Below are positions 165 through 11,457 of a DNA stretch of 11,457 nucleotides, in pieces. The position numbers and the translations under genes are program-made. Positions within the stretch are counted from its first letter, which is position 1. Every line of letters begins with the position of its first letter. The notes below the pieces were generated by a model that had not been told where the DNA came from, searched no databases, and worked only from the letters and a program-made list of their open reading frames with translations. Source of the stretch: Faecalibacterium prausnitzii (GTDB taxonomy: Bacteria > Bacillota > Clostridia > Oscillospirales > Ruminococcaceae); assembly GCA_002313795.1 (NCBI GenBank), contig DCCL01000163.1, positions 4,484 to 15,940 of the forward strand, written 5' to 3'.

Positions 165-1583
165 TTACCAGAGGTTTGCGGTCTCGTTGTAGAGGCCCTC
201 ATAGCTCTTTGCGGAGACATCCCAGCTGAAGTCGCACTCCATGTCATGCTTGACAAGGTTGTGCCAGTCTTCCTTGCTGTAGTAGCGATCCTGTGCACGG
301 CAGCAGGCATCATACAGCTCATGGGCGCTGTAGCCTGCAAAGGTGAAGCCGTTGCCCTCGCCCAGTGTGCAGTCGTGGATGGAATCCCGCAGACCGCCGG
401 TCTCACGGACGATGGGAGGCGTGCCGTAGCGGCAGGCCACCATCTGTGCCAGACCGCAGGGCTCACTCTTGGAGGGCATGATGAAGACATCAGCGCCGGC
501 GTAGATCTCCTGCGACAGGGTCGGCTCGAAGCCGATGTAGGTGCCCACACGGCCCGGATGACGGCCGCACAGGTCGGAGAAGAAGTTCTCGTACTGGCTC
601 TCGCCGCTGCCCAGGATGACCAGCTCGATGCCGCGGTCCACCAGGCCGTCGGCCACGCTCTGCACCAGGTCGAAGCCCTTCATGCCGACCATACGGCTGA
701 CCATGGCGAAGACAGGGCTGCCGTCCTTATTCAGGCCGAACTTGTCCTGCAGGGCCTCCTTGCACTTTGCCTTGCCCTCATCAAAGTTGGTGATGTCGTA
801 GTTGAAGGGGATGTGCGGGTCGGTGGCAGGGTTGTTGGCCTCCATATCGATACCGTTCAGGATACCGCAGAGCTTATACTGCTTCTCCCGCAGCAGGGCA
901 TCCAGACCGTAGCTGAACCACGGGTCGAGGATCTCCTGTGCGTAGGTGGGGCTGACGGTGGTGATCTTATCGGCAGTCTCGATGGCGCCCTTCATGAAGT
1001 TGGCGCAGCCGTCGTACTCCACGATATGCTGGTCACGGCGACCGATGCCGCAGGTGTCTTCCAGAATATCGGTACCATACTTGCCCTGATAGGCGATGTT
1101 ATGGATGGTGAAGATGGTCTTGATGCGGTTGAACTTATCGAGATGGCGGTAGTACAGGTTCAGGTAGACCGGGACCAGTGCGGTCTGCCAGTCGTTGCAG
1201 TTGATGATATCGGGGGTGAAATCGATGTAGAACAGGGTCTCCAGAATCGCGCGGGAGAAGAAAGCGAAGCGCTCGCCGTCATCGTAGAAGCCATACAGGC
1301 CGCGGCGCTTGAAGTAGTATTCATTGTCGAGGAAGTAGTAGGTCACGCCATCGACCTCGGCCTTGAACAGGCCGCAATACTGGCTGCGCCAGCCCACGGG
1401 CACCGAGTAGTTGGTGACATATTCCAGCTTGTCGCGGAACTTCAGGTCGCCATACAGGGGCATGATGACACGGGCATCCACACCGTCCTTGACCAGTGCC
1501 TTGGGCAGGGAGCCGGCCACATCAGCCAGACCACCGGATTTTGCAAAGGGGGTTGCTTCCGAAGCAGCATACAGGATCTTCAT
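165..1583 (-). CDS. glgA: glycogen synthase (ADP-glucose type)
   Basis: A 472-residue GT5 family glycogen synthase that transfers glucose from ADP-glucose to the non-reducing end of a growing alpha-1,4-glucan in the cytoplasm. The N-terminus has the K-S/T-G-G-L nucleotide-sugar motif (K15-S-G-G-L). The C-terminal GT-B lobe has the family signature PSKSEPCGL, whose Glu (about residue 374) matches E377 of the E. coli enzyme. Length is normal for the family (about 470-480). I chose the ATG at 1583 because family members begin almost directly with the ILYAASE strand and AGGAAGGAG lies nine bases upstream. A second in-frame ATG at 1616, with its own GGGAGGA four bases upstream, would add 11 residues (MKTLYQEGANL). 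It is the last gene of the glgBCDA order, but a terminator-like hairpin separates it from glgD, so its expression may be set apart from the upstream genes. Confidence 0.96.
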   Translation of the reverse strand: MKILYAASEATPFAKSGGLADVAGSLPKALVKDGVDARVIMPLYGDLKFRDKLEYVTNYSVPVGWRSQYCGLFKAEVDGVTYYFLDNEYYFKRRGLYGFYDDGERFAFFSRAILETLFYIDFTPDIINCNDWQTALVPVYLNLYYRHLDKFNRIKTIFTIHNIAYQGKYGTDILEDTCGIGRRDQHIVEYDGCANFMKGAIETADKITTVSPTYAQEILDPWFSYGLDALLREKQYKLCGILNGIDMEANNPATDPHIPFNYDITNFDEGKAKCKEALQDKFGLNKDGSPVFAMVSRMVGMKGFDLVQSVADGLVDRGIELVILGSGESQYENFFSDLCGRHPGRVGTYIGFEPTLSQEIYAGADVFIMPSKSEPCGLAQMVACRYGTPPIVRETGGLRDSIHDCTLGEGNGFTFAGYSAHELYDACCRAQDRYYSKEDWHNLVKHDMECDFSWDVSAKSYEGLYNETANLW

Positions 1584-1634
1584 AAGATTCGCTCCTTCCT
1601 GATATAAGGTTTTCATCTATCCTCCCGCTGCGGC

Positions 1635-1687
1635 AAAAAGAGCGGGCGGGGGCACACGGTGCCCCCGCCCCTCTTTAAAAGAGGGGC
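1635..1687 (-). terminator. tandem overlapping hairpins between glgD and glgA
   Basis: On the minus strand two stems follow one another. The first pairs 1678-1687 with 1667-1676 (GCCCCTCTTT/AAAGAGGGGC). The second pairs 1659-1670 with 1644-1655 as a perfect 12-bp GC-rich stem with a three-base loop, followed by GCTCTTTTTG. The second is a good intrinsic terminator. The stems share 1667-1670, so they partly compete. A third, weaker pairing joins AGGGGCT near 1682-1688 with AGCCGCCCCT near 1700-1710. The element could reduce read-through into glgA, or be a dispersed palindromic repeat that landed in the operon. Confidence 0.75.
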
Positions 1688-1729
1688 TACCGGGGAGGGA
1701 GCCGCCCCTATGGGAGATCAAAGCTGCGC

Positions 1730-2857
1730 TCAGACGATGTGGTTCTTCTGAACGTAAACGGGGAAGCTCCTGGTACCGCTCAGCTTCTTGTCTGCGGTGA
1801 TGCGGACGTTCTTATCCGTCACAACGCAGTCCAGCTGTGCGCCGACTTCCACCACGGTATCCTGCATCAGGACACAGTTCTTGACGACGGCACCCTTCTT
1901 GACCTTGACGCCGCGGAAGAGCACGCAGTTCTCCACGGTGCCCTCGATGACGCAGCCATCGGCCAGCAGAGAATTGGTGACATTGGAACCAGCGACATAG
2001 CGGGTGGGGTTGTCGTCGCGGATCTTGGTATAGACAGGGCTCTTCTTGGGGAAAAGCGCATTCAGGTTTGCTTCGTCGATGAGCTTCAGATTCTCGTCGA
2101 AGTAGCTCTTCATGTCGCAGACATGGGCCACATAGCCGGTATACTCCACAGCGTGGATGTTCAGGATGTTGACATTGTGGGCCAGGATGTCGCGCTCAAA
2201 GTAGATGAGGCCGCGGGCAGTGGCGTCCTTGACCAGCTTGATGAGGGTCTGACGCTCCAGAACGTAGATGTTCAGGTCAAGGTTCTGCTTGCCGGGGCGG
2301 TAGTCGTTGAACAGCAGCTCGGTCACACGGCCGTCTTCATCGACGGTCAGGGTGTAGTTGTCGTTCTTGCGGCCCTCGGGGATCTCGGTCCTCTGGTAAG
2401 CCACGGTCACATCTGCACCGCTGGCCTGATGTGCAGCCAGCAGAGCGTTGAAATCGTAGTTGATGGCGATGTTGGCATCGCTCATGACCACGTAGCGCTC
2501 CTTCTGGTTCTCGAGGAAGCTCAGGATGGAGTTCAGTGCCTCCACGCGGCCGGAGTAGATGCGGACGCCCTTCTCAGCGAAGGGAGGCACGATGTTCAGA
2601 CCACCGTAGCGGCGGGCCATATCCCACTCGCGGCCGGTGCCCAGATGATCCATCAGGGAGTGGTAATTCTTGCGCACCACGACAGACACATTGGAGATGC
2701 CGCAGTTTGCCATGCTGGACAGGACAAAGTCCACCATGCGGTAACGGCCTGCGAAGGGGATCGAGGCCATGGCGCGCTCGGTCACCAGCTCAGGGACGGT
2801 GTTATCATAGCTGTTGGGAAAAATGATGCCCAACGCATTGTTGTTCTGGCTCAGCAT
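1730..2857 (-). CDS. glgD: glucose-1-phosphate adenylyltransferase-like subunit GlgD
   Basis: A 375-residue GlgC paralogue. In Firmicutes with both genes, GlgD is usually a poorly active or inactive partner that forms a hetero-oligomer with GlgC and activates it. The N-terminal nucleotidyltransferase fold is recognisable (PFAGRYRMVDFVLSSMANCG), and the C-terminal half has the left-handed beta-helix hexapeptide pattern (VIEGTVENCVLF, VVKNCVLMQ). It lacks the GGRGSRL nucleotide-binding loop seen in glgC; the equivalent segment reads LGIIFPNSYDNTV, as expected for GlgD. The ATG lies inside the last codons of glgC: ATGCTGA holds the start of glgD and the TGA of glgC, an overlap of seven bases that implies translational coupling. 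AAGGAGG lies ten bases upstream, inside glgC. With glgC frameshifted, ribosomes may not reach this overlap in phase, so GlgD output could also be affected. Confidence 0.95.
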   Translation of the reverse strand: MLSQNNNALGIIFPNSYDNTVPELVTERAMASIPFAGRYRMVDFVLSSMANCGISNVSVVVRKNYHSLMDHLGTGREWDMARRYGGLNIVPPFAEKGVRIYSGRVEALNSILSFLENQKERYVVMSDANIAINYDFNALLAAHQASGADVTVAYQRTEIPEGRKNDNYTLTVDEDGRVTELLFNDYRPGKQNLDLNIYVLERQTLIKLVKDATARGLIYFERDILAHNVNILNIHAVEYTGYVAHVCDMKSYFDENLKLIDEANLNALFPKKSPVYTKIRDDNPTRYVAGSNVTNSLLADGCVIEGTVENCVLFRGVKVKKGAVVKNCVLMQDTVVEVGAQLDCVVTDKNVRITADKKLSGTRSFPVYVQKNHIV

Positions 2858-4045
2858 ACTTCCTCGCCCTCCTTGACGGAATCAAATACTTTGGCGCCAT
2901 CCTTGACGGTAGCGCCTGCGCCGATGGTCAGACCGGTGCCGACGTGTGCGATGGGGCCGTCGCCGCCGATTTTGGCGCCTGCGCCCACAACGACATCCTC
3001 AGCCAGGATGCAGCGCTTGACCACTGCGCCTGCCTTGACCACGACGCCATCCATCAGGACGGCATCCTCAACGGTAGCGCCCTCTTCCACCACGACGCCT
3101 GCGCTCAGCACAGAGTGATTGACGCGGCCATAGATCTTGCAGCCTTCCGTGACCAGCGAATCCTGCACCACGGCGCGGGGGCCGATCTTCTGAGCGGGCA
3201 GCACCGGGTTGCGGCTGTAGATCTTCCACTTCTCGTCGAAGATGTTGATGCCGGAGTTCTCGGGGTCGAGGACTTCCATATTGGCTTCCCACAGGCTGTC
3301 GATGGTGCCGACATCGCGCCAGTAACCGGCAAAGCGGTAAGCGTACATCTTGCGGCCATCGCGCAGCAGAGCGGGGATGATGTTCATGCCAAAGTCGTTC
3401 TTGGAGTTGGGATCTGCCTCGTCCTCTTCCAGGTACTTCTTCAGGATATCCCAGTTGAAGATGTAAATGCCCATGGAAGCCAGGTTGGACTTGGGTACCG
3501 GGGGCTTTTCCTGGAACTCGGTGATCTTATCGTTCTCGTCTGCGACCATCAGGCCGAAGCGGGAAGCTTCCTTCCAATCCACTTCCATGACAGCGACCGA
3601 GAACTCTGCGCCCTTTTCCTTGTGGAAGCGCAGGAAGTCTGCATAGTCCTGCTTGCAGATCTGGTCACCGGACAGGATGATGACGTACTCCGGATCGTAG
3701 CTGTCAATGAAGCCGATGTTCTGGTAAATGGCGTTTGCAGTGCCCTTATACCAGTCCGTGCCCTTTGCCTGCTCATACGGCGGCAGGGTGTGGACGCCGC
3801 CGTAGCAGACGGTCCAGGTCCCAGGGCTGGCCATTGCCGATGTACTCGTTCAGCTTCTGAGGCTGATACTGCGTTGCGATGCCAACGGTATCGATGTTGG
3901 AGTTGACGCAGTTGGACAGCGGGAAGTCCACGATGCGGTATTTGCCGCCGAAGGACACCGCCGGTTTTGCCGTTTTCTGTGTCAGCGCATACAAGCGCGA
4001 GCCACGTCCGCCGGCAAGGATCATTGCCACGATTTCTTTTGCCAT
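2851..4045 (-). pseudogene. glgC: glucose-1-phosphate adenylyltransferase, frameshifted
   Basis: ADP-glucose pyrophosphorylase, which makes ADP-glucose from glucose-1-phosphate and ATP, the first committed step of bacterial glycogen synthesis. The frame opens at the ATG at 4045 (GGGGAG nine bases upstream) and gives 79 normal residues, including AGGRGSRL and [19 protein letters not shown], up to PWDLDR. One extra base at about 3808-3809 then shifts the frame, and the protein ends at a TGA at 3773. The rest continues in the next frame from [11 protein letters not shown] through SGDQICKQDY, EKPPVPKSNLASMGIYIF and a hexapeptide beta-helix to the stop at 2851. Removing one base gives 397 residues, normal for the family. 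No homopolymer or clear slippery site is present. It may be a real null allele or a sequencing error; all downstream conserved blocks look intact, so if real it is recent. Confidence 0.9.
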
Positions 4046-4121
4046 AGCTTTATTCTCCCCTTTAAAAGCATTTCCTGATAGTTTGGTGGAAATGGTTCAA
4101 CAATATCGGTGCGGGTCAGGC

Positions 4122-6305
4122 TTACTTCTCAGCCTTCTCCGTCTTTTTTGCCCGGGGCTTGCGGGCGGGCTTTACTTCCGGCTCCGCAGCCTTTTCGGCC
4201 TTGGGTTTTCTGCCCCGCTTGGCAGGTGCTTTTTCCTCTGCAGGAGCAGTCTCTGCCTTGGGCTTGCGGCCCCGTTTGGCCGGGGTCTTTTCCTCGGCCT
4301 TTGCCGCTTTGGCGGTCTTTGCAGCCTTTACAGCTTTTGCAGCCTTCTTGGGAGCGGCCTTTTCCGCAGCCTTCTCCTCTGCCGTCTTGCGGGTGCGCTT
4401 GATGGGCACCTCAAAGTACAGCACGCTCATGGGAGGCAGGGTGATGGTGATGCTCTGCTCAAAGCCATGGAGCGGCTTTTTCTTGGAGCGGACTGCCTTG
4501 TTGTGGACGCTGCCGGAGCCGCCGAACTCCTCGTCATCGCTGTTCAGGATCTCTTTGTAAGTACCGGAAGTGGGGGCACCCAGCATGTAGCCCTCCCGCA
4601 GGACAGGGTTGAAGTTGCAGACCACAAGGATCTGCTTGCCGCTGGCATCCTTCCGCAGGAATGCCACAACGCTCTGCTGCGAGTCATCGGGAACGATCCA
4701 CTGGAAGCCCTCCCAGCTGTAATCGATCTGCCAGAAGGCAGGGTGCTCTTTGTAGAATTTGTTCAGGGTCTTGACGTAGGTCTGCAGCTCGGTGTGCTTG
4801 TCGTAGCCCAGCAGCATCCAGTCCAGCGGCTTGGCCTCGTTCCACTCGGTGAACTGGCCGAACTCCTGACCCATGAACAGCAGCTTCTTGCCGGGGTGGG
4901 CCATCATGTAGCCGAAGAAAGTGCGCAGGTTGGCGAACTTCGCCTCGTAATCGCCCGGCATCTTATTGATGAGACTGCCCTTGCCGTGCACCACCTCATC
5001 ATGGCTGATGGGCAGCACGAAATTCTCGCTGAATGCGTAGAAGAAGCTGAAGGTGACTTTATTGTGGTTGCCGGAACGGAAAAGCGGGTCAGTCTTCATG
5101 TAGCTAAGCATGTCGTTCATCCAGCCCATGTTCCACTTGAAGTTGAAGCCCAGACCGCCGTCGGAAGCCGGTTTTGTGACCATGGGCCATGCGGTGGACT
5201 CCTCCGCGATCATGTATTTATGCGGGTGGCGGCCCAGCACCGTGGTGTTCAGTTTACGCAGGAAAGCCACGGCCTCAAGATTCTCCTTGCCACCGTTCTT
5301 GTTGGGCTCCCACTCGCCCTGCTTGCGGTTGTAATCCAGATAGAGCATGGAGGCCACGGCATCCACCCGCAGGCCGTCGATGTGGTACTGCTCCAGCCAG
5401 TAGAGTGCGCTGGAAATGAGGAAGCTCTGCACCTCACTGCGGCCGAAATCGAAGACCATGGTGCCCCATTCCTTGTGCTCGCCGCGCTTGGGGTTGGGGT
5501 CTTCGTAGCAGGGTTCTCCATCGAACATGTACAGGCCGAACTGGTCTTTGGGGAAGTGGGCCGGCACCCAGTCCATGATGACACCGATGCCCGCTTCGTG
5601 CATCTTGTCCACAAAAGTCATCAGATCCTTCGGGGTGCCGTAGCGGCTGGTGGGGGCAAAATAGCCCGTGACCTGATAGCCCCAGCTGCCATCAAAGGGA
5701 TACTCCATGACGGGCAGCAGCTCCACATGGGTATAGCCCATATCCTTGATGTACGGGATGAGCTGGTCGGCCAGCTCGGAGTAATTATAGGGCAGGTCGC
5801 CCTCCTTCATCTTCCAACTGCCGGCATGCATCTCGTAGATATTCATGGGGCCGTTGATGACGTCTTCCTTCTTCTGGGCCGTCTGCCATGCGCTGTCGTG
5901 CCACTCAAAGCCATTGATATCGTAGACCTTGCTGCCGTTGGAGGGGCGGGTCTCGGCGTGGAATGCATAGGGGTCGGCCTTGTAGACCAGGTCCCCTGCG
6001 CGGGTGGTCACGCAGTATTTATAGACATCGTATTCTTTCATACCGGGGATGAACAGCTCCCACACAGAGTCTCCGTCCACCTTGCGCATCGGGTGGCTGC
6101 CCGGTTTCCAGCTATTAAAATCGCCTACCACGCTGATGGCCGTCGCATGCGGTGCCCAGACGCGGAACACCACGCCTGTCTCCCCGGCCCGCTGCTCGAT
6201 GTGTGCGCCAAAATAGCGGTACGCTTCACAGTTATTTCCCTGCTTGAACAAATACACCGGCAGATCCGATGGATTGCTGCGGGTCTTTTCCTCAGTCGGT
6301 TTCAT
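4122..6305 (-). CDS. glgB: 1,4-alpha-glucan branching enzyme with basic C-terminal tail
   Basis: A 727-residue GH13 branching enzyme that cuts alpha-1,4 chains and re-attaches them as alpha-1,6 branches. Residues about 40-125 form the CBM48-type N-terminal domain (VVFRVWAPHATAISVVGDFNSW). The (beta/alpha)8 barrel follows, with D315 (GLRVDAVASM) as nucleophile, E368 (MIAEES) as acid/base and D436 (ISHDEVVHGKGS) as the third acid; their spacing matches D405/E458/D526 of E. coli. A beta-sandwich domain ends near residue 635 (SVLYFEVPI). Residues 636-727 are an unusual Lys/Ala/Pro-rich extension with a 15-residue repeat, EEKxPAKRGRKPKAE, at 671-685 and 690-704. The tail is in frame with no break, so it is part of the protein. 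The ATG at 6305 has GGGGAGGAG six bases upstream. It is the first gene of the operon, with 76 bases and no terminator before glgC. Confidence 0.96.
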   Translation of the reverse strand: MKPTEEKTRSNPSDLPVYLFKQGNNCEAYRYFGAHIEQRAGETGVVFRVWAPHATAISVVGDFNSWKPGSHPMRKVDGDSVWELFIPGMKEYDVYKYCVTTRAGDLVYKADPYAFHAETRPSNGSKVYDINGFEWHDSAWQTAQKKEDVINGPMNIYEMHAGSWKMKEGDLPYNYSELADQLIPYIKDMGYTHVELLPVMEYPFDGSWGYQVTGYFAPTSRYGTPKDLMTFVDKMHEAGIGVIMDWVPAHFPKDQFGLYMFDGEPCYEDPNPKRGEHKEWGTMVFDFGRSEVQSFLISSALYWLEQYHIDGLRVDAVASMLYLDYNRKQGEWEPNKNGGKENLEAVAFLRKLNTTVLGRHPHKYMIAEESTAWPMVTKPASDGGLGFNFKWNMGWMNDMLSYMKTDPLFRSGNHNKVTFSFFYAFSENFVLPISHDEVVHGKGSLINKMPGDYEAKFANLRTFFGYMMAHPGKKLLFMGQEFGQFTEWNEAKPLDWMLLGYDKHTELQTYVKTLNKFYKEHPAFWQIDYSWEGFQWIVPDDSQQSVVAFLRKDASGKQILVVCNFNPVLREGYMLGAPTSGTYKEILNSDDEEFGGSGSVHNKAVRSKKKPLHGFEQSITITLPPMSVLYFEVPIKRTRKTAEEKAAEKAAPKKAAKAVKAAKTAKAAKAEEKTPAKRGRKPKAETAPAEEKAPAKRGRKPKAEKAAEPEVKPARKPRAKKTEKAEK

Positions 6306-6320
6306 AAACAGCTCCTCCCC

Positions 6321-6347
6321 GCACAGGCTGCAAAGGCAGTCCTGTGC
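6321..6347 (-). promoter_or_regulatory. stem-loop in the glgB 5' untranslated region
   Basis: GCACAGG/CCTGTGC and CTGC/GCAG pair around a four-base loop, with one bulged A. The hairpin begins about six bases from the predicted transcript start and ends just before the glgB Shine-Dalgarno sequence. It could protect the 5' end of the mRNA or affect ribosome access. No known riboswitch is recognised. Confidence 0.55.
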
Positions 6348-6360
6348 CTTTTACTCTCTT

Positions 6361-6389
6361 ATATTAAAGAATTTTGTCTGATTTTTCAA
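6361..6389 (-). promoter_or_regulatory. sigma-A-type promoter of the glg operon
   Basis: On the minus strand TTGAAA (6384-6389, five of six to consensus) and TAATAT (6361-6366, four of six) are 17 bases apart in an AT-rich stretch. The predicted start is near 6354, giving a leader of about 48 nt ahead of glgB. Confidence 0.65.
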
Positions 6390-6496
6390 GGCTTTTTCAG
6401 AAAATATGCTATAATCTTTTCATCAGATTTTTTCTGTTATATACAACATCCCCAATTTTTCATAAGAATTATCGGTAAACATGACAGAATAAAGGC

Positions 6497-6559
6497 AAAA
6501 AAAGAAACATCCGCCCCGGATTTTGCGCATTTGGCACAAAACCAGAACGGATGTTTTTC
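6497..6559 (-). terminator. bipartite intrinsic terminator after the 3D-domain gene
   Basis: On the minus strand AAACATCCG (6548-6556) pairs with CGGATGTTT (6505-6513). Nested inside is a second stem, GGTTTTGTGC with GCGCAAAATCC (one bulge and one wobble), around CAAAT. After a short CTT, seven U follow (complement of 6497-6503). It lies 32 bases past the stop of the 3D-domain gene and upstream of the glgB promoter, so it isolates the two transcription units. Confidence 0.85.
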
Positions 6560-6590
6560 TTATGATTTACTTTGATTTTTCACACAGCCG

Positions 6591-7649
6591 TCAGCCGACC
6601 ACGTAAACATTGACATTGATGGCGCCGTTGATGACGGACTCCGCGTAGGTCTCATAGAACAGATCCACGAGGATGCGGCCATCCTGAACAGCGAGGCCGG
6701 TGTCGGTGGCCACGGCATAGCCATAGACGAAACTGCCATCGGTGGAGGTGATATACAGCAGGGTGCCGTAGGGGATCACGCTGGGGTCAACGGCCACGGT
6801 GCCGTAACCCAGACCCAGACCGGAAGAACCCTTGCCGGACTTGGCATAATAGCCGGTGGCCTTGCCGGTGAGCACTTTGCGGTAACTGGTGGGGGCGTTG
6901 GTGGTGCCGTCCGGCCCGGTGAGGGGGGAGACGGGTGCACCTGCGCCGTAAGTTTTCACGACATGGTCGGTGGGCTCCACCGTAGTGGTCACATCGGTGA
7001 CGACGCTGTTCTCCAGCTCGCCATCCACCCAGCGCTCCCGGGTGGTGACGGTCTGCTGACCTTCAGAGCCATGCTGCAGGGTGGTGGTGCGACCGGTGTT
7101 GCGGAAGTAGAGACTGGTGTAGACGTAAGAAGTGTCATAAGGGACAGACTGCGTCTCCACCTTGTCCTGATACTCGACGCGGTGCACCTCGATCTTGCTG
7201 CCCGCCGTGACCTTTGCGCTCAGGGCAGGTTCGGTGTAGTCATCCCCATCCAGGGTGATGCCGGCACGCTCCAGAGCATCCGCTACGGTGCCCACCACCA
7301 TTCGGACGGGGTACTCCTGACCGTCAGCCTCAATGGTGACGCTGAAGGCACGCTGGATGTTCAGGGATGCCAGACTGCCGCTGTAGGCAGTGTAGTAAAC
7401 TTCGTCTCCCTCCTCGGCCTGAATGCCGGAGAGATCCATAACGCTGGCAGGGTCGGTCTCGGAGCTGAGAACGATCTGCCGCGCACCGTGGGAGTCTGTG
7501 ACGTAGGTCAGCCGCAGATTCGCGGCGGTCACGGTCAGTGTGAACACGAGGCACACAGCCATGACGCAGAACGCCAGCACACGGGATGAGGCTGCACGGG
7601 TGCAGCCAGACAATGCTTTCTTAAATTTGACGGAAGCGATACGAGACAA
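6591..7649 (-). CDS. G5 and 3D domain cell-wall protein (YabE-like)
   Basis: A 352-residue exported or membrane-anchored protein. Residues about 24-43 are a hydrophobic segment after a basic N-terminus (signal anchor or signal peptide). Two DUF348-like ubiquitin-fold segments (about 47-90 and 97-160) precede a G5 domain (about 160-235, motif QDKVETQSVPYDTSYVYT). Residues 262-352 are a 3D domain, with the three aspartates at D288 (VAVDPSVIPYGT), D316 (ATDTG) and D329 (VDLFY). 3D domains occur in MltA-type lytic transglycosylases and in Rpf/YabE/YocH-like wall-remodelling proteins; G5 is linked to wall or sugar binding. There is no separate transglycosylase domain, so the 3D domain is the candidate enzyme. 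The start is uncertain: the only early candidate is TTG at 7649, and GAGAGGAG touches it with no spacer; the next ATG (residue 30) would remove the basic N-terminus. It is monocistronic, with its own promoter and terminator. Confidence 0.9.
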   Translation of the reverse strand: MSRIASVKFKKALSGCTRAASSRVLAFCVMAVCLVFTLTVTAANLRLTYVTDSHGARQIVLSSETDPASVMDLSGIQAEEGDEVYYTAYSGSLASLNIQRAFSVTIEADGQEYPVRMVVGTVADALERAGITLDGDDYTEPALSAKVTAGSKIEVHRVEYQDKVETQSVPYDTSYVYTSLYFRNTGRTTTLQHGSEGQQTVTTRERWVDGELENSVVTDVTTTVEPTDHVVKTYGAGAPVSPLTGPDGTTNAPTSYRKVLTGKATGYYAKSGKGSSGLGLGYGTVAVDPSVIPYGTLLYITSTDGSFVYGYAVATDTGLAVQDGRILVDLFYETYAESVINGAINVNVYVVG

Positions 7650-7678
7650 CTCCTCTCTTTTCAGATTTTGGAATACAG

Positions 7679-7749
7679 AGCGGGCCTGTATTTCAAGGCC
7701 CGCTTCTCCGTGCGTAAATACCCCCGCACAGCGGGTGCCGCAATGCGGC
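7679..7749 (-). promoter_or_regulatory. three-hairpin leader of the 3D-domain gene
   Basis: The predicted 149-nt leader has three consecutive stems in the minus-strand RNA: GCCGC/GCGGC at 7737-7749, CCCGC/GCGGG at 7723-7735, and a perfect 9-bp stem, AGCGGGCCT/AGGCCCGCT, at 7679-7704. None is followed by a U-tract. Wall-remodelling genes of Firmicutes are often controlled by c-di-AMP riboswitches, but I do not see that consensus here. The structure is unassigned. Confidence 0.45.
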
Positions 7750-7804
7750 TTTTCACTTCACCGTGATGAATTTTATGCGCTGCAACGTTTGTTGAGCGGG
7801 TAGT

Positions 7805-7833
7805 ATTTTAGCAGACCGGAGCCGCTTTGTCAA
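7805..7833 (-). promoter_or_regulatory. strong sigma-A-type promoter of the 3D-domain gene
   Basis: On the minus strand TTGACA (7828-7833, exact consensus) and TAAAAT (7805-7810, five of six) are separated by exactly 17 bases. Predicted transcript start is near 7798. Confidence 0.85.
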
Positions 7834-8256
7834 ATCAGCAGCTCTTTGCTTGATAATTGCTTCACATAGTTTTTTGTGCATTCTGCACATAGTTTTCTCT
7901 TGATTTTCCGAAATTCAATCGTTTTTCTCCGATTTTTTCGCAAAATCAAAGTCTTCATCGTTCATAATTTTTTAACATTCCAGATGCGTTTTTTATGGCA
8001 TTCCGGCCAGTATTTCCGGCTCTCTTTGCGGCGTCAAACCGGCCATAACCGGCCCATTTCCGACACAAATCATCCGCTGTTTTTTCCTTATTTTCAGTCC
8101 AAAAATAAGGACGAATTTCTCCCGGAAAATCTCGTTTGGCAAAATGCCGAACCCGCCAAATTCTCAATAAAAAAGTGTGTACTCCCGCTCCGCTCTCCGC
8201 TGCGCTACAATCGTAGCAGACACAGATGCAAAACAAAATGAAAGGAGTTTTTCCCT
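7834..8256. other. AT-rich intergenic region upstream of the tail-fibre gene
   Basis: About 420 bases without a convincing gene, AT-rich between 7840 and 8160 and unlike its GC-rich surroundings. It holds an operator-like palindrome near 7875, a perfect 9-bp inverted repeat CCTTATTTT/AAAATAAGG with a seven-base loop around 8087-8111, and two CCGGCC-containing near repeats around 8000-8060. A clear plus-strand promoter is missing. The best candidates are TACAAT at 8206-8211, inside GCTAC-AATC-GTAGC but with no matching -35, and TTGTCA/GATAAT around 7827-7857 with a poor 19-base spacer. Confidence 0.5.
7863..7896. promoter_or_regulatory. operator-like palindrome with flanking direct repeat
   Basis: TGTGCA-TTC-TGCACA is a perfect 6-bp inverted repeat with a 3-bp centre. 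It is overlapped by two direct copies of CACATAGTTTT (7863-7873 and 7886-7896) that start 23 bp apart. It sits between the divergently oriented 3D-domain and tail-fibre genes, upstream of the 3D-gene -35 box, so a regulator could act on either side. No protein is assigned. Confidence 0.4.
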
Positions 8257-9852
8257 ATGCAAATCAAGATCACAGCGCGGGAGTTCGGCGGCACCGAGTT
8301 CCTTGCGCACCCCCACCGGCTGCATCTGGGCGCACAGCAGGCCGAAGGCGTTGACCGCCTGGAATTCGTTCTGCCGCAGGCGTGGGCCGGGTGCATCGTC
8401 ACCCTCTATATCCGCCATGCAGACGGCACCCTGGCCGAACCGCTGGCGCTGGATGAAAGCGGTTGTGTCACCGTGGGCCGCAGCTTCACCGGCTGGGCCT
8501 CCGGCGAGTGGATGCTGGCCGCATCCAACGGGGATGGCTACACCGCCTACACCCGTCCGGGCCAGTACGACGTCCACGACATCCTGCCCACGGAAGGCAC
8601 CGGCGAGGAACTGACACCCTCTCTCTATGAGCAGTTCATCGCCCGGGTGGTAGCCAGCTCCAACGCCGCTGCCGAAGCCGCCAAGCGCGCCGCCGCCGGT
8701 GAGGAAAACGCCAAGCAGAGCGCTGCAAAGGCCAGCACCGCTGCCCAGCAGACTGCCGCTAACGCCACCCTTGCCGCAGGCTATGCGGAGCGGGCCGAGG
8801 CTGCCGCAGACCGGGCCGCCTCCTACGCCCCCGCCGAGGGCACCGTGCTGAGCGTCAACGGCAAGAGCGGCGCAGTTCGGCTGAATGCGCTGGATGTCTG
8901 GGCGCTGCCCCGCCCCGTCTCTCCGCAGGCGGGGCAGCTGGTGCGGGTGGTAAAAGTAGATGCTGCCACCGGCGCACTGACCGCCGACACCATCAGCCCC
9001 GACTCCCTCAGCGGTCTGGGCAGCGAGGAAAAGGCCCTGCTGCTCAAGCTGCTGGGCTCTGCCAGCTATACCGACCCGGACGCCCAGAGTAGTTATGAGG
9101 CCCTCAAAAAGCTGTGGGACACCACCCCATCCACCCCGCTGCCCGAGCCGGATATCATCCCGGTGGAGAAGGTGACGCTGAGCCAGCATACTCTGGAACT
9201 GAGCCGGAACAGCACTGCTGAGCTGAGCGTCTCCATCAGCCCCTCCGATGCCACCGACCAGACTGTGCTGTGGAGCGCCTCGCCGGAGGGCATCGTTTCA
9301 GTAGAGGCCGGCCGGGTGACAGCCCTTAGGACCGGCACTGCCACAGTCACCGTCACCTCCAATAGCAAGAGCGACAGCTGCACCGTGACTGTGACTCCCG
9401 CCGTCATCAGCCTTGCCACCGTCCGGAATGACAGCGGCGGCATCACCGCGTGGGACACTGCCCCTGCCCGGTCTGAGTTCTTCATGCCCCTGACCGCCAA
9501 AAAGGCCGGTCTGCAGCTCCGCTCCCTCTCCTTCCGGGTCAAGGGCTATATGGCCAGCCGGATGCGGACCGTTCTCCGCCGGTATGGCTCTGATACGCCG
9601 CTGGTGGATAAGCTTACCGATATCGCCCGGGGCTACAACGATGTGACCATCGACATGGGCGACTTCCCGCTGGAACAGAGCGTGGAATATCAGCTCTACT
9701 TTTCCGCCTCCAACAACTTCTATCCCCCTACGGTGGACTCTTCCTGGGTGGCGGCAAACAGTTATGTTGACATCGCCCACGGCAGCGCCTACTGCGAGGG
9801 TAACAGCAGCATCCTCTTCTCGGGCATCCTTGTGCTGCGGGAATCCGAGTAA
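8257..9852 (+). CDS. phage tail-fibre/baseplate-like protein with BIg2 domain
   Basis: A 531-residue protein resembling phage minor structural (tail fibre or baseplate) proteins of Clostridia. Residues 1-110 form a beta-rich N-terminal domain ending in a GQYDVHDIL segment. Residues about 130-190 are Ala/Glu/Lys/Gln-rich and should form a helical coiled coil. Residues 197-214 carry VLSVNGKSGAVRLNALDV, a motif typical of trimeric tail fibres before the shaft. Residues about 303-380 are a BIg2 (bacterial Ig-like) domain (PVEKVTLSQHTLEL through GTATVTVTS), common in adhesins and phage receptor-binding proteins. Residues 385-531 are a predicted beta-rich C-terminal domain of unknown ligand, perhaps carbohydrate. 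The ATG at 8257 has AAAGGAG nine bases upstream. There is no signal peptide, so export would need lysis or a tail particle. No other phage structural gene is in the window; the only partner is the holin-like gene downstream. Confidence 0.75.
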   Translation: MQIKITAREFGGTEFLAHPHRLHLGAQQAEGVDRLEFVLPQAWAGCIVTLYIRHADGTLAEPLALDESGCVTVGRSFTGWASGEWMLAASNGDGYTAYTRPGQYDVHDILPTEGTGEELTPSLYEQFIARVVASSNAAAEAAKRAAAGEENAKQSAAKASTAAQQTAANATLAAGYAERAEAAADRAASYAPAEGTVLSVNGKSGAVRLNALDVWALPRPVSPQAGQLVRVVKVDAATGALTADTISPDSLSGLGSEEKALLLKLLGSASYTDPDAQSSYEALKKLWDTTPSTPLPEPDIIPVEKVTLSQHTLELSRNSTAELSVSISPSDATDQTVLWSASPEGIVSVEAGRVTALRTGTATVTVTSNSKSDSCTVTVTPAVISLATVRNDSGGITAWDTAPARSEFFMPLTAKKAGLQLRSLSFRVKGYMASRMRTVLRRYGSDTPLVDKLTDIARGYNDVTIDMGDFPLEQSVEYQLYFSASNNFYPPTVDSSWVAANSYVDIAHGSAYCEGNSSILFSGILVLRESE

Positions 9853-9853
9853 C

Positions 9854-9882
9854 AAAAAATGCCGGCCTTTTTCAGACCGGCA
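9854..9882 (-). terminator. minus-strand terminator between the tail-fibre and holin genes
   Basis: TGCCGGTCT (9874-9882) pairs with AGGCCGGCA (9860-9868) around a five-base loop and is followed on the minus strand by UUUUUUG (9854-9859). One pair is G-U in minus-strand RNA but C-A on the plus strand, so the element fits minus-strand transcription although both flanking genes are on plus. It begins two bases after the tail-gene stop and would block antisense RNA from entering that gene. Confidence 0.7.
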
Positions 9883-9927
9883 GTGGAACAGACACATATC
9901 TTATAGCAGGAAAGCGAGGTAATTTTT

Positions 9928-10179
9928 ATGACACATCCCAAGATCTCCGCATCCACCCTGGCCCGCACGGCGGCGCTGGCGCTGGCACTGACCAATCAGG
10001 TACTCAGCGCAATGGGCAGACCCATCCTGCCCATTGCGAGCGAACAGCTGGAACAGCTCATTTCCAGCGGACTGACCGTAGCTGCCGCCCTCGCCAGTTG
10101 GTGGAACAACAACAGCTTCACCCCGGAGGCCATCGAGGCGGACGACTTCATGGCCCGGCTGAAACAGAAGAGCCTCTGA
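9928..10179 (+). CDS. phage holin-like protein
   Basis: An 83-residue protein of the SPP1-type phage holin family. Such holins accumulate in the membrane and open lesions that release endolysin or activate lysis. Two hydrophobic helices are visible: about residues 8-28 (LARTAALALALTNQVLSAMG) and 43-60 (EQLISSGLTVAAALASWW). The family hallmark W-x-NNSFT-x-EA-x-x-AD follows (WWNNNSFTPEAIEADD), with a basic C-terminus. Length is normal. The ATG at 9928 has GCGAGGT upstream with a spacing of about eight bases. It follows the tail-fibre gene by 75 bases on the same strand, but no endolysin gene follows it, which is unusual; the next gene is convergent. It may be a remnant of a prophage lysis cassette or a domesticated pore. 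Confidence 0.85.
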   Translation: MTHPKISASTLARTAALALALTNQVLSAMGRPILPIASEQLEQLISSGLTVAAALASWWNNNSFTPEAIEADDFMARLKQKSL

Positions 10180-10197
10180 CCCCATAAAGCAGAACAA

Positions 10198-10227
10198 CGC
10201 CCCGGAAGCTTTGACACTTCCGGGGCG
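10198..10227. terminator. bidirectional terminator-like hairpin between convergent genes
   Basis: CGCCCCGGAAG and CTTCCGGGGCG form a perfect 11-bp stem with an eight-base loop. It lies 18 bases after the holin stop and 25 bases after the stop of the convergent 61-residue gene. U-tracts are weak on both sides (GCTGTGTTTGTC on plus, TTGTTCTGC on minus), so it may leak. Confidence 0.65.
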
Positions 10228-10252
10228 CTGTGTTTGTCTGTCAGAGAAACAC

Positions 10253-10438
10253 TCAGGCCAAAACGATATCTTCCGTGGCCACATGGCTCTCCTGGGTGCT
10301 GATGACTGCAGCATGAACATCTGCGGCCTTCGCTGCCTTCGCAAAAAGGCCCGTATAGATGGATGCTCCTGCCAGCAGCAGGACCGCCAGTGCGCAGCCC
10401 ACCAAACGAATGGTCATGCCATCAATGTTTTCTTTCAT
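10253..10438 (-). CDS. small single-pass membrane peptide of unknown function
   Basis: A 61-residue peptide. Residues 1-10 (MKENIDGMTI) are short and polar, residues about 11-32 (RLVGCALAVLLLAGASIYTGLF) make one transmembrane helix or uncleaved signal anchor, and the rest is an Ala/His/Glu-containing tail ending DIVLA. I do not recognise a family. The ATG at 10438 is preceded by AAAGGAG with eight bases between, strong evidence that it is translated. An upstream in-frame GTG at 10543 would add 35 residues of low-quality sequence without a ribosome site and is not preferred. It has its own promoter, but a terminator lies between promoter and gene, so expression appears attenuated. It is convergent with the holin gene. 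A membrane peptide beside a holin could be an antiholin-like partner, but that is only positional guesswork. Confidence 0.65.
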   Translation of the reverse strand: MKENIDGMTIRLVGCALAVLLLAGASIYTGLFAKAAKAADVHAAVISTQESHVATEDIVLA

Positions 10439-10555
10439 GATGCCTTCTCCTTTTCCACCCGACGGACGCGCGGACACTGTTCCGCTGCGGCTCGTCTTTT
10501 CTTGGCTCCGGGCCCCCTCTATCGGCCCGCAGCAGCGATTCACTCACCGGGCAAA
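10439..10555 (-). promoter_or_regulatory. structured leader between attenuator and small-peptide gene
   Basis: On the minus strand GCTGCGG pairs with CCGCAGC across about 45 bases, enclosing a GGGCC/GGCCC stem. No promoter-like sequence is seen here, so transcripts reaching the peptide gene should come through the upstream terminator. Confidence 0.35.
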
Positions 10556-10587
10556 GAAAAAAGCCTAGGGCGAACACACCCCAGGCT
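10556..10587 (-). terminator. intrinsic terminator in the small-peptide leader
   Basis: AGCCTGGGGT (10578-10587) and GCCCTAGGCT (10562-10571) form a continuous 10-bp stem in minus-strand RNA with two G-U wobbles and a six-base loop, followed by UUUUUU. On the plus strand the two wobbles become mismatches. It begins about 14 bases after the predicted transcription start, so terminated transcripts would be about 45 nt. Confidence 0.8.
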
Positions 10588-10607
10588 CCATTGTCTGTCT
10601 GCTTTGT

Positions 10608-10636
10608 ATGATAGTCCTTTTTTCAGTTTTTGTCAA
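10608..10636 (-). promoter_or_regulatory. near-consensus sigma-A promoter, minus strand
   Basis: TTGACA (10631-10636, exact) and TATCAT (10608-10613, five of six) are separated by 17 bases on the minus strand. Predicted start is near 10601. It drives the short attenuated leader and, on read-through, the 61-residue peptide gene. Confidence 0.8.
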
Positions 10637-10639
10637 GAG

Positions 10640-10978
10640 CAGAATGAGAGGATTTCATTTTTATTTTTTGCTCTTTTCCGGCAGAATTTGCAGATGGACA
10701 ATTTCTGTGTTAGAAGCTGTTTTCATAAGCAGGGTGCACCGGACGACGAGAATTTTTGCACTCAGCCAAGGCGATTTTCCGCAGCAATCCTGACGGATCG
10801 CAAGGGAATTCAACGCAGGATGGGAGCAAAAAGGTCATCCGGGCGGTGTGCAATGCTTATAAAAACGGCTTCTTATACTTAATCTGCTGCCCTTCTCCAA
10901 TCTGGCAGCAGGGAGGAGGCGAATGCAATGTCTTCCCAGCCAGTTTTCTAAAAAAGTCAAGCAGGCAGAGTCTATATA
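10640..10978. other. intergenic region without a convincing gene
   Basis: About 340 bases. Open frames crossing it do not look like proteins. It contains a perfect 8-bp hairpin CTGCTGCC/GGCAGCAG (10884-10911), followed at once on the plus strand by GGAGGAGG and two overlapping micro-frames: ATG at 10923 (18 residues) and ATG at 10928 (7 residues). A -10-like TATACT lies at 10874-10879 without a matching -35. I see no tRNA, repeat array or known RNA. Confidence 0.5.
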
Positions 10979-11010
10979 ACAAAAAAGCAGTTCTGCTGAA
11001 GCAGAACTGC
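10979..11010 (-). terminator. intrinsic terminator of rpsI
   Basis: GCAGTTCTGC and GCAGAACTGC form a perfect 10-bp stem (10987-10996 with 11001-11010) with a four-base loop, followed on the minus strand by six U. It lies 21 bases after the rpsI stop codon, as expected for the native terminator of that gene. Confidence 0.88.
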
Positions 11011-11031
11011 CGGAAATCCGATACGGGTAAA

Positions 11032-11079
11032 TCAGCGCTTGCTGAACTGGGGTGCACGACGGGCAGCCTTCAGACCGTA
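11032..11079 (-). pseudogene. rpsI: 3' fragment of ribosomal protein S9 gene
   Basis: The minus strand encodes YGLKAARRAPQFSKR followed by TGA, the highly conserved C-terminus of bacterial ribosomal protein S9 (E. coli S9 ends in the related RRRPQFSKR; many Firmicutes end KKYGLKKARRAPQFSKR). Upstream the similarity stops: the preceding codons read FGSKAGE instead of the usual ERKK. The open frame begins only at an ATG at 11115 without a ribosome site, so this is not a working gene. The rpsI terminator follows directly. The best reading is that the original end of rpsI was cut off by an element entering from the right, while the body of rpsI lies beyond the far end of the element with its end rebuilt by the element's own att copy. 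A less likely alternative is a transposed fragment. Confidence 0.8.
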
Positions 11080-11085
11080 CTCACC
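11035..11085. other. probable attachment site of the integrated element
   Basis: The core of recombination should lie within the conserved rpsI 3' coding sequence, because S9 similarity begins abruptly at about 11080 and the recombinase gene sits about 110 bases to the right. The exact core cannot be fixed without the other junction. Confidence 0.45.
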
Positions 11086-11141
11086 TGCCTTTGATCCAAA
11101 AAGTCCAGTATTCATGCGGGTTTTCGGGCTTTCCTCTCTCA

Positions 11142-11162
11142 GTAAACCCATAGGTAAACCCA
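11142..11162. repeat. 9-bp direct repeat between rpsI fragment and integrase
   Basis: GTAAACCCA occurs at 11142-11150 and again at 11154-11162, 12 bp start to start. Its place between the presumed att core and the end of the recombinase gene is where arm-type recombinase sites or excisionase sites are found in tyrosine-recombinase elements. The function is inferred. Confidence 0.5.
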
Positions 11163-11188
11163 CGAAAACGAGAAATTTTTGGTACAGT

Positions 11189-11457
11189 TTAACGCAGCCC
11201 GAATGCAGCATTCACAACGCTGCTTAATTCCTCAGGTTTATTATACTTGACTTTCGCATAGATGTCCATAGTCGTTTTGCTGTTCTCATGGCCTGCCAGA
11301 TACTGCACCGTCTTAGGATCAACACCTTTGTAAATCAGATTGGTGATGTAGGTGTGCCGCAGCATATGCGGAGTCACCTTGAAGTCCATCGTATACACCA
11401 GTTTGGGATTGTTCGGCTGATGCTCACCAAGCCTTGGCTTTATTCTATGCTTGATGG
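11189..11457 (-). CDS. tyrosine recombinase/integrase, C-terminal part
   Basis: The last 88 residues of a phage-type integrase; the frame is open to the window edge, so the 5' part is missing only because the window ends. The catalytic C-terminal domain shows H-x-x-R (TPHMLRHTYITNL), then KTVQYLAGHENSKTTMDIYAKV, which supplies the second conserved His (GH) and the nucleophile Tyr (DIYA). These motifs resemble integrases of Firmicute integrative conjugative elements and prophages (Tn916-like and similar). The protein ends AAFGLR. The gene reads toward the rpsI fragment, with its stop about 110 bases from it, the usual arrangement for an integrase at the end of its element. An internal GTG at 11398 is not needed as a start because the similarity continues upstream. 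Confidence 0.93.
   Translation of the reverse strand, partial: IKHRIKPRLGEHQPNNPKLVYTMDFKVTPHMLRHTYITNLIYKGVDPKTVQYLAGHENSKTTMDIYAKVKYNKPEELSSVVNAAFGLR

Follow-up and report, generated by a model that had tools for sequence, protein, structure and literature searches.

A probable attachment junction of an integrative and conjugative element with paired tyrosine recombinases at the 3' end of rpsI in Faecalibacterium

The stretch of DNA analysed here, 11,457 nucleotides from Faecalibacterium prausnitzii (hereafter the window), very probably includes at its right end the attR of an integrative and conjugative element (ICE) that is inserted in the 3' end of rpsI of a Faecalibacterium chromosome and that carries paired recombinases, Int1 and Int2, together with a recoded rpsI tail. 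The window itself covers a single junction and the 269 bp from the integrase stop to its edge. Both ends, the repeat, an empty site, the conjugation genes and the recombinase pair were seen in relatives, and from these we infer that an element of the family found in genome G017 lies to the right of the window in this genome.

At the junction, the minus strand carries a lone copy of the S9 tail at 11032-11079, 48 nt from TAC to TGA that encode YGLKAARRAPQFSKR and a stop, i.e., the last 15 codons of rpsI plus the stop, which we read by sequence comparison as the displaced host copy. Similarity to the intact rpsI genes of loci L001-L005 and L007 ends at 11081, since the two bases preceding TAC match too, in agreement with the abrupt edge near 11080 that had been described in an earlier note on this DNA. 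A stem search located an 11-bp stem at 10986-11011 (minus strand), 3' of the stop of the fragment, that resembles the terminator following rpsI in F. prausnitzii L002; the native terminator proposed earlier is thus recognizable as a host-type rpsI terminator, now behind the displaced fragment. A recombinase gene occupies 11189-11457, likewise on the minus strand; its 3' end at 11189 is separated from the fragment by 109 nt, and its other end runs off the window edge. Its 88 open codons match the C-terminal part of PF00589 (E 4.7e-13) and contain all three catalytic motifs of the C-terminal part of Int2, namely HMLRHT, LAGH and the tyrosine of MDIYA. The arrangement claimed in the earlier note, a lone S9 C-terminus followed within about 110 bases by the 3' end of a tyrosine recombinase, is therefore upheld, as is its reading as an element junction within the 3' end of rpsI; the same junction is present in G017, in G414 and in the metagenomic contig MT839505. 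An Rfam scan of the whole window at gathering thresholds gave no match.

The window record is the sole sequence for the junction of this strain, and the genus does contain partial rpsI 3' repeats behind rpsI (L007), both of which would suit an assembly chimera or a rpsI end that was duplicated in tandem. The recurrence of the junction in three separate records (G017, G414 and MT839505), however, makes such an origin exceedingly improbable.

The left side of the window is native DNA from downstream of rpsI, as its synteny with F. longum CLA-AA-H243 (L001) indicates. There rpsI is intact, with its 48-nt end at 6548-6595, and beyond it the window segments 10978-11081, 9892-10652 and 7600-9842 align in that order at 77-83% identity, so that the flank at 7600-10652 is syntenic with the region after the intact gene; the 3D-domain protein encoded at 6591-7649 of the window shares 93% identity with its L001 counterpart. 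With an intact rpsI and a window-like left flank, L001 represents the unoccupied site, and the alignment with a relative lacking the element that the earlier note had suggested has thus supplied an empty site. A search of the L001 genome (G001) with the paired integrase gave no match at 1e-40. Two further features of the DNA downstream of rpsI were observed. Downstream of the rpsI fragment, at 8257-10179, the window encodes a protein of 531 aa with a Big_2 domain and an 83-aa holin of the SPP1 type; the DNA of the holin region is present in L001-L008, and the Big_2 gene has matches, in the same order, in L001, L002, L004 and L006-L008, which suggests a conserved phage-derived island in Faecalibacterium. 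A hairpin-rich module whose borders are partial copies of the rpsI 3' end, some inverted and some direct, also occurs downstream of Faecalibacterium rpsI (L007, 4110-4363; L001, 6548-6820; L082, 11964-12104).

Close relatives of the integrase were found in five of 31 Faecalibacterium genomes. The last 429 nt of the window match the Faecalibacterium chromosome G017 (contig C1, 3,102,523 bp) with 410 identities, and the integrase residues of the window are identical to Int2 of G017 (88/88) and to Int2 of G414; on this ground the window attR most likely belongs to the ICE family of G017. In the 111 kb of G017 examined, a scan allowing up to 12 mismatches detected the 48-nt repeat twice. The first repeat (372763-372810) is the tail of an intact rpsI, just upstream of which lies an L13-like ORF (371966-372394) taken as rplM, and the second (455126-455173) is a lone fragment adjoining the integrase. 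The positions of the two repeats (372763 to 455126) give an element of about 82.4 kb. Its products include a VirD4 of the CD1115 family (NF045973) and a VirB4 of the CD1110 family (NF045971), both above the NCBI cut-offs, as well as a PF03432 relaxase, topoisomerase III, ParB, a giant protein with an SNF2 domain, an NlpC/P60 protein, Int1 and Int2; an HTH_17 match reached 26.2 bits, slightly below the Pfam cut-off of 27. By this content the element is an ICE. The earlier note had expected a far junction with rplM and the rest of rpsI, at which a second copy of the repeat would be found and the element would rebuild the end of S9. This expectation has been realized in the relative G017, where the other 48-nt repeat ends an intact rpsI whose tail is synonymously recoded.

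A second element, of about 60 kb, lies in G008 between an intact rpsI and the integrase pair (398258 to 457963) and has much of its backbone in common with that of G017. Only about the first 20 nt of its displaced rpsI fragment stay together, because a hairpin-rich module, similar to those found after rpsI in other loci, interrupts the fragment at its GCACGTCGTGC palindrome. Signs of decay are visible in other loci as well: in L003 (after 4228) and L005 (after 7066), attL sequence resembling that of an element, with the terminator and GGTGGACAA repeats, comes after an intact rpsI, and the respective genomes, G003 and G005, gave no paired-integrase match at 1e-40, so these sequences are probable element remnants. 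Decay of this kind in the present strain, with attR and the integrase end kept and the element deleted or immobile, is nevertheless very improbable, as the 88 integrase codons in the window are open, their residues equal those of G017 and G414, and the three catalytic motifs are in place.

The point of strand exchange can be narrowed down by comparing near-identical elements that have entered rpsI in six genomes (G011, G250, G307, G166, G010 and G013). In their attR copies, the 60 nt preceding the repeat are invariant except at -1 (a or g), and TACGG at the start of the repeat is invariant as well, followed by host-specific synonymous differences from +6 onward and by sequence that differs throughout past the stop. 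Five smaller element groups were compared in the same alignment. In three of these (L138/L139/L061, L125/L126 and L101/L102), the first difference in the repeat likewise falls at +6; position -1 varies as well in L125/L126, and L138/L139/L061 and L125/L126 each show one element-side difference further out. The G182/G303 group (L136/L140) is little informative, having several element-side differences and only one in the repeat. The loosest fit is that of G017/G414 (L123/L124), with several element-side differences and a repeat that differs already at +1 (TACGG vs CACGG). From this pattern of variation, the crossover most likely takes place at the 5' edge of the repeat (about positions -1 to +5, gTACGG), which corresponds to 11075-11080 on the minus strand of the window. 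With a crossover at this edge, the 48-nt repeat would mostly not be the recombination core, and the element would supply its own rpsI tail and terminator. The attL and attR tails of G017 differ at many third positions while encoding an identical protein. The comparison by which the earlier note had wished to define the core was thus made on relatives: the 48-nt repeat was found, and the strictly shared core amounts to only about 5-7 nt at its 5' edge.

The near-identical integrase pairs of these six genomes are found in different species, their carriers including Faecalibacterium sp. An122, F. gallinarum and Angelakisella massiliensis, and point to a recent and wide spread.

Next to the core, a repeat search identified the motif TGGGTTTAC on the minus strand at 11142-11150 and 11154-11162, its only two occurrences in the window. 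The 111 kb of G017 contain five copies, of which three are located 3' of the attL core and two 5' of the attR core, with none elsewhere on either strand. These repeats are candidate arm-type integrase sites.

To what extent the two recombinases occur together was assessed in 396 genomes of the family, evenly drawn from a larger group, with matches counted at E <= 1e-110 and up to four candidates scored per genome. Matches were present in 24 genomes, 20 of which carry exactly two copies (counted at that threshold among the candidates scored), adjacent and on the same strand, and the genus sample likewise gave two matches in each of the five matching genomes out of 31. The match starts at or near a contig edge in G180, G294 and G310, and G334 has Int1 alone, without Int2. 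In G017 and G414, Int1 is directly upstream of Int2. The rpsI core, sought as a string in which synonymous bases were permitted and up to one mismatch was tolerated, adjoins the integrase in 21 of the 24 genomes with a match; G014, G221 and G334 are the exceptions, and G008 with its interrupted fragment is not one of the 24. The recurrence of the junction in G017, together with this frequency of the core beside the integrase, excludes chance as its origin. In G014 only the first part of the junction is core-like, followed by a palindrome; the paired-integrase junctions of G014 (L128, 2828 onward, minus strand) and G221 (L137, 2828 onward) share only the first ~17-30 nt and possibly represent secondary insertions in look-alike sites.

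Other sequence collections contain both paired and single integrases. A scan of viral contigs yielded eight loci, of which six were examined: L100-L102 each have a pair at rpsI, and L103-L105 have one integrase each. A search of phage and plasmid records found the pair in the Subdoligranulum record L061 and the same junction in the metagenomic contigs MT835962 and MT839505, all unannotated at the match, and the rpsI end in MT836114 and MT836102. A wider protein search yielded 4176 proteins at E <= 1e-80 among 7999 scored, of which the best 120 of 4176 were considered, with no gain in gene context. One of the metagenomic contigs, MT835962.1 (L060), was deposited as a bacteriophage and is an rpsI-inserted element (1107-10915) with a single integrase; it encodes very large, secreted-looking proteins and, by eye, no phage structural genes.

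Single integrases at rpsI, both with the core, are thus represented by L060 and by the viral contig L104, in which a 1210-aa ORF looks like a tape-measure protein by eye. These examples leave room for the attR in the window to stem from a prophage, or from another element with one integrase, at the same site, an origin that is quite improbable because the 88 residues of the window integrase are those of the paired Int2 of G017 and G414. The phylogeny agrees with a paired origin. A tree built from 56 rows, 45 of them different, separates Int1 from Int2, each group having an SH-aLRT of 96, and places the window fragment in the Int2 group, with L060, L103 and L104 outside both groups; the tree is the product of a quick search in which the window row fills 22% of the columns, and L140 and L141 enter it as 'single' although a second ORF is present in each.

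The relationship of the two recombinases was analysed in 18 complete pairs, a set that does not include L102, L140, L141 or the four near-identical copies L131-L134. In every pair, the two genes are open, have 125-156 nt between them and keep the arginine of GLRREE, HxLRH, GH and the tyrosine of MDIYA; the LKT lysine motif is found in every Int1 and in 17 of 18 Int2 sequences, the pattern being unmatched in L142. The distance matrices of Int1 and Int2 are correlated (Mantel r 0.87, 0/9999 permutations), a strength that is overstated because the 18 pairs include near-copies, and dN/dS is 0.03-0.11 in both genes in eight comparisons. By these measures, Int1 and Int2 are co-diversified and both under purifying selection. 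It is unlikely, therefore, that one of them is a relic of an earlier tandem insertion without a role in the movement of the element. Tandem accretion at rpsI has been described in streptococci (PMC5357655), and G334 does keep Int1 alone, but a relic would hardly have stayed open, closely spaced, co-diversified and similarly constrained in 18 pairs, and none of the 18 retains a core copy between the two genes, the best candidate having 17 mismatches of 48.

Taken as partners, Int1 and Int2 would recombine a short site where the final 48 nt of rpsI begin, with the small helix-turn-helix protein probably serving as the excision factor. The element would carry its own synonymously recoded 48 nt and terminator, so that the copy at attL would rebuild an identical S9 tail, and the original tail and terminator of the host would be pushed to attR. 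We infer that both recombinases are needed, perhaps as a heteromer like that of XerC/XerD or through a split between integration and excision.

XerC and XerD are paired tyrosine recombinases with a heteromeric mechanism. XerD and XerC-like chains match the C-terminus of Int2 in a PDB sequence search, and XerC/XerD are likewise two paralogues with the catalytic motifs kept. Unlike them, Int1 and Int2 are encoded side by side on a mobile element, and a shared synapse would be conjectural. Among PDB sequences, Int2 matches 6emy, 6en0 and 6emz ('Int protein') best; we take these to be the Int of Tn1549. In its VirB4 (NF045971), VirD4 (NF045973) and PF03432 relaxase, the G017 element is similar to the ICEs of the CD1110/CD1115 type, presumably Tn1549-like. 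Those ICEs have one integrase, in contrast to the present family, which is site-specific at rpsI and has two recombinases.

The insertion site itself is already known, as streptococcal elements use the rpsI 3' end. Streptococcal ICEs and IMEs at this site, as described in PMC4701971 and PMC5357655, have a tyrosine integrase, insert in the rpsI 3' end, show a direct repeat inside this gene and undergo tandem accretion there, features taken as common to both groups; the general statement of the earlier note that such integration is known in some Firmicutes is thus accurate for streptococci. In these descriptions, however, the tyrosine integrases are described singly, whereas those of G017 are paired, and the streptococcal rpsI ICEs belong to those that have ConjICESt3 modules, in contrast to the conjugation genes of the CD1110/CD1115 type in G017. 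Among the open-licence papers covered, we found no report of rpsI elements in Faecalibacterium and, among the matches listed, no paired tyrosine integrase in ICEs at rpsI, and the paired version at this known site has apparently not been reported there before.

The cargo of the relatives gives an indication of what such elements transport. In G017, the slot after the relaxase (L119/L120, 417562-431178) contains BrxA, BrxB, BrxC (1063 of its 1222 residues scanned), PglX, a small ORF, PglZ and BrxL, an order that we take to be that of type I BREX. The backbone of G414 is about 97% identical to that of G017, and its Int2 99% identical; the left end of this element is beyond its contig. Its slot (L153/L154), flanked by the same backbone, contains BrxC/DUF6079, PglXI, a cyclase, a Cap15-like effector, BrxHI, PglZ and BrxA, presumably a type III BREX, with the cyclase and the effector forming a CBASS-like pair between PglXI and BrxHI. 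Two proteins of the G008 slot run through PADLOC gave no defence match except a weak HTH match. Different BREX systems thus occupy one slot of the same ICE backbone in G017 and G414, the closest backbones to the window, and the cargo of the window element could be any of those in the relatives, or something else. We tentatively propose, with somewhat less than even confidence, that these elements belong to a widespread group of gut-Clostridia ICEs with an obligate Int1 and Int2 integrase derived from one old duplication, a short site where the S9 tail begins, a supplied, recoded 16-codon end (15 residues and the stop) and a cargo slot that trades whole anti-phage systems.

An essential ribosomal gene can tolerate an insertion only when its protein is restored. 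As the mapped crossover indicates that the element brings a synonymous tail of its own, the functional S9 gene of these strains would be part host and part element. A recombinase pair kept for so long in an ICE provides a testable system for why one integrase may be insufficient. As both ICEs and at least one prophage-like contig use the rpsI site in gut bacteria, and as different BREX systems are found in one slot, it may serve as a practical address at which mobile defence islands can be sought in Faecalibacterium and its relatives.
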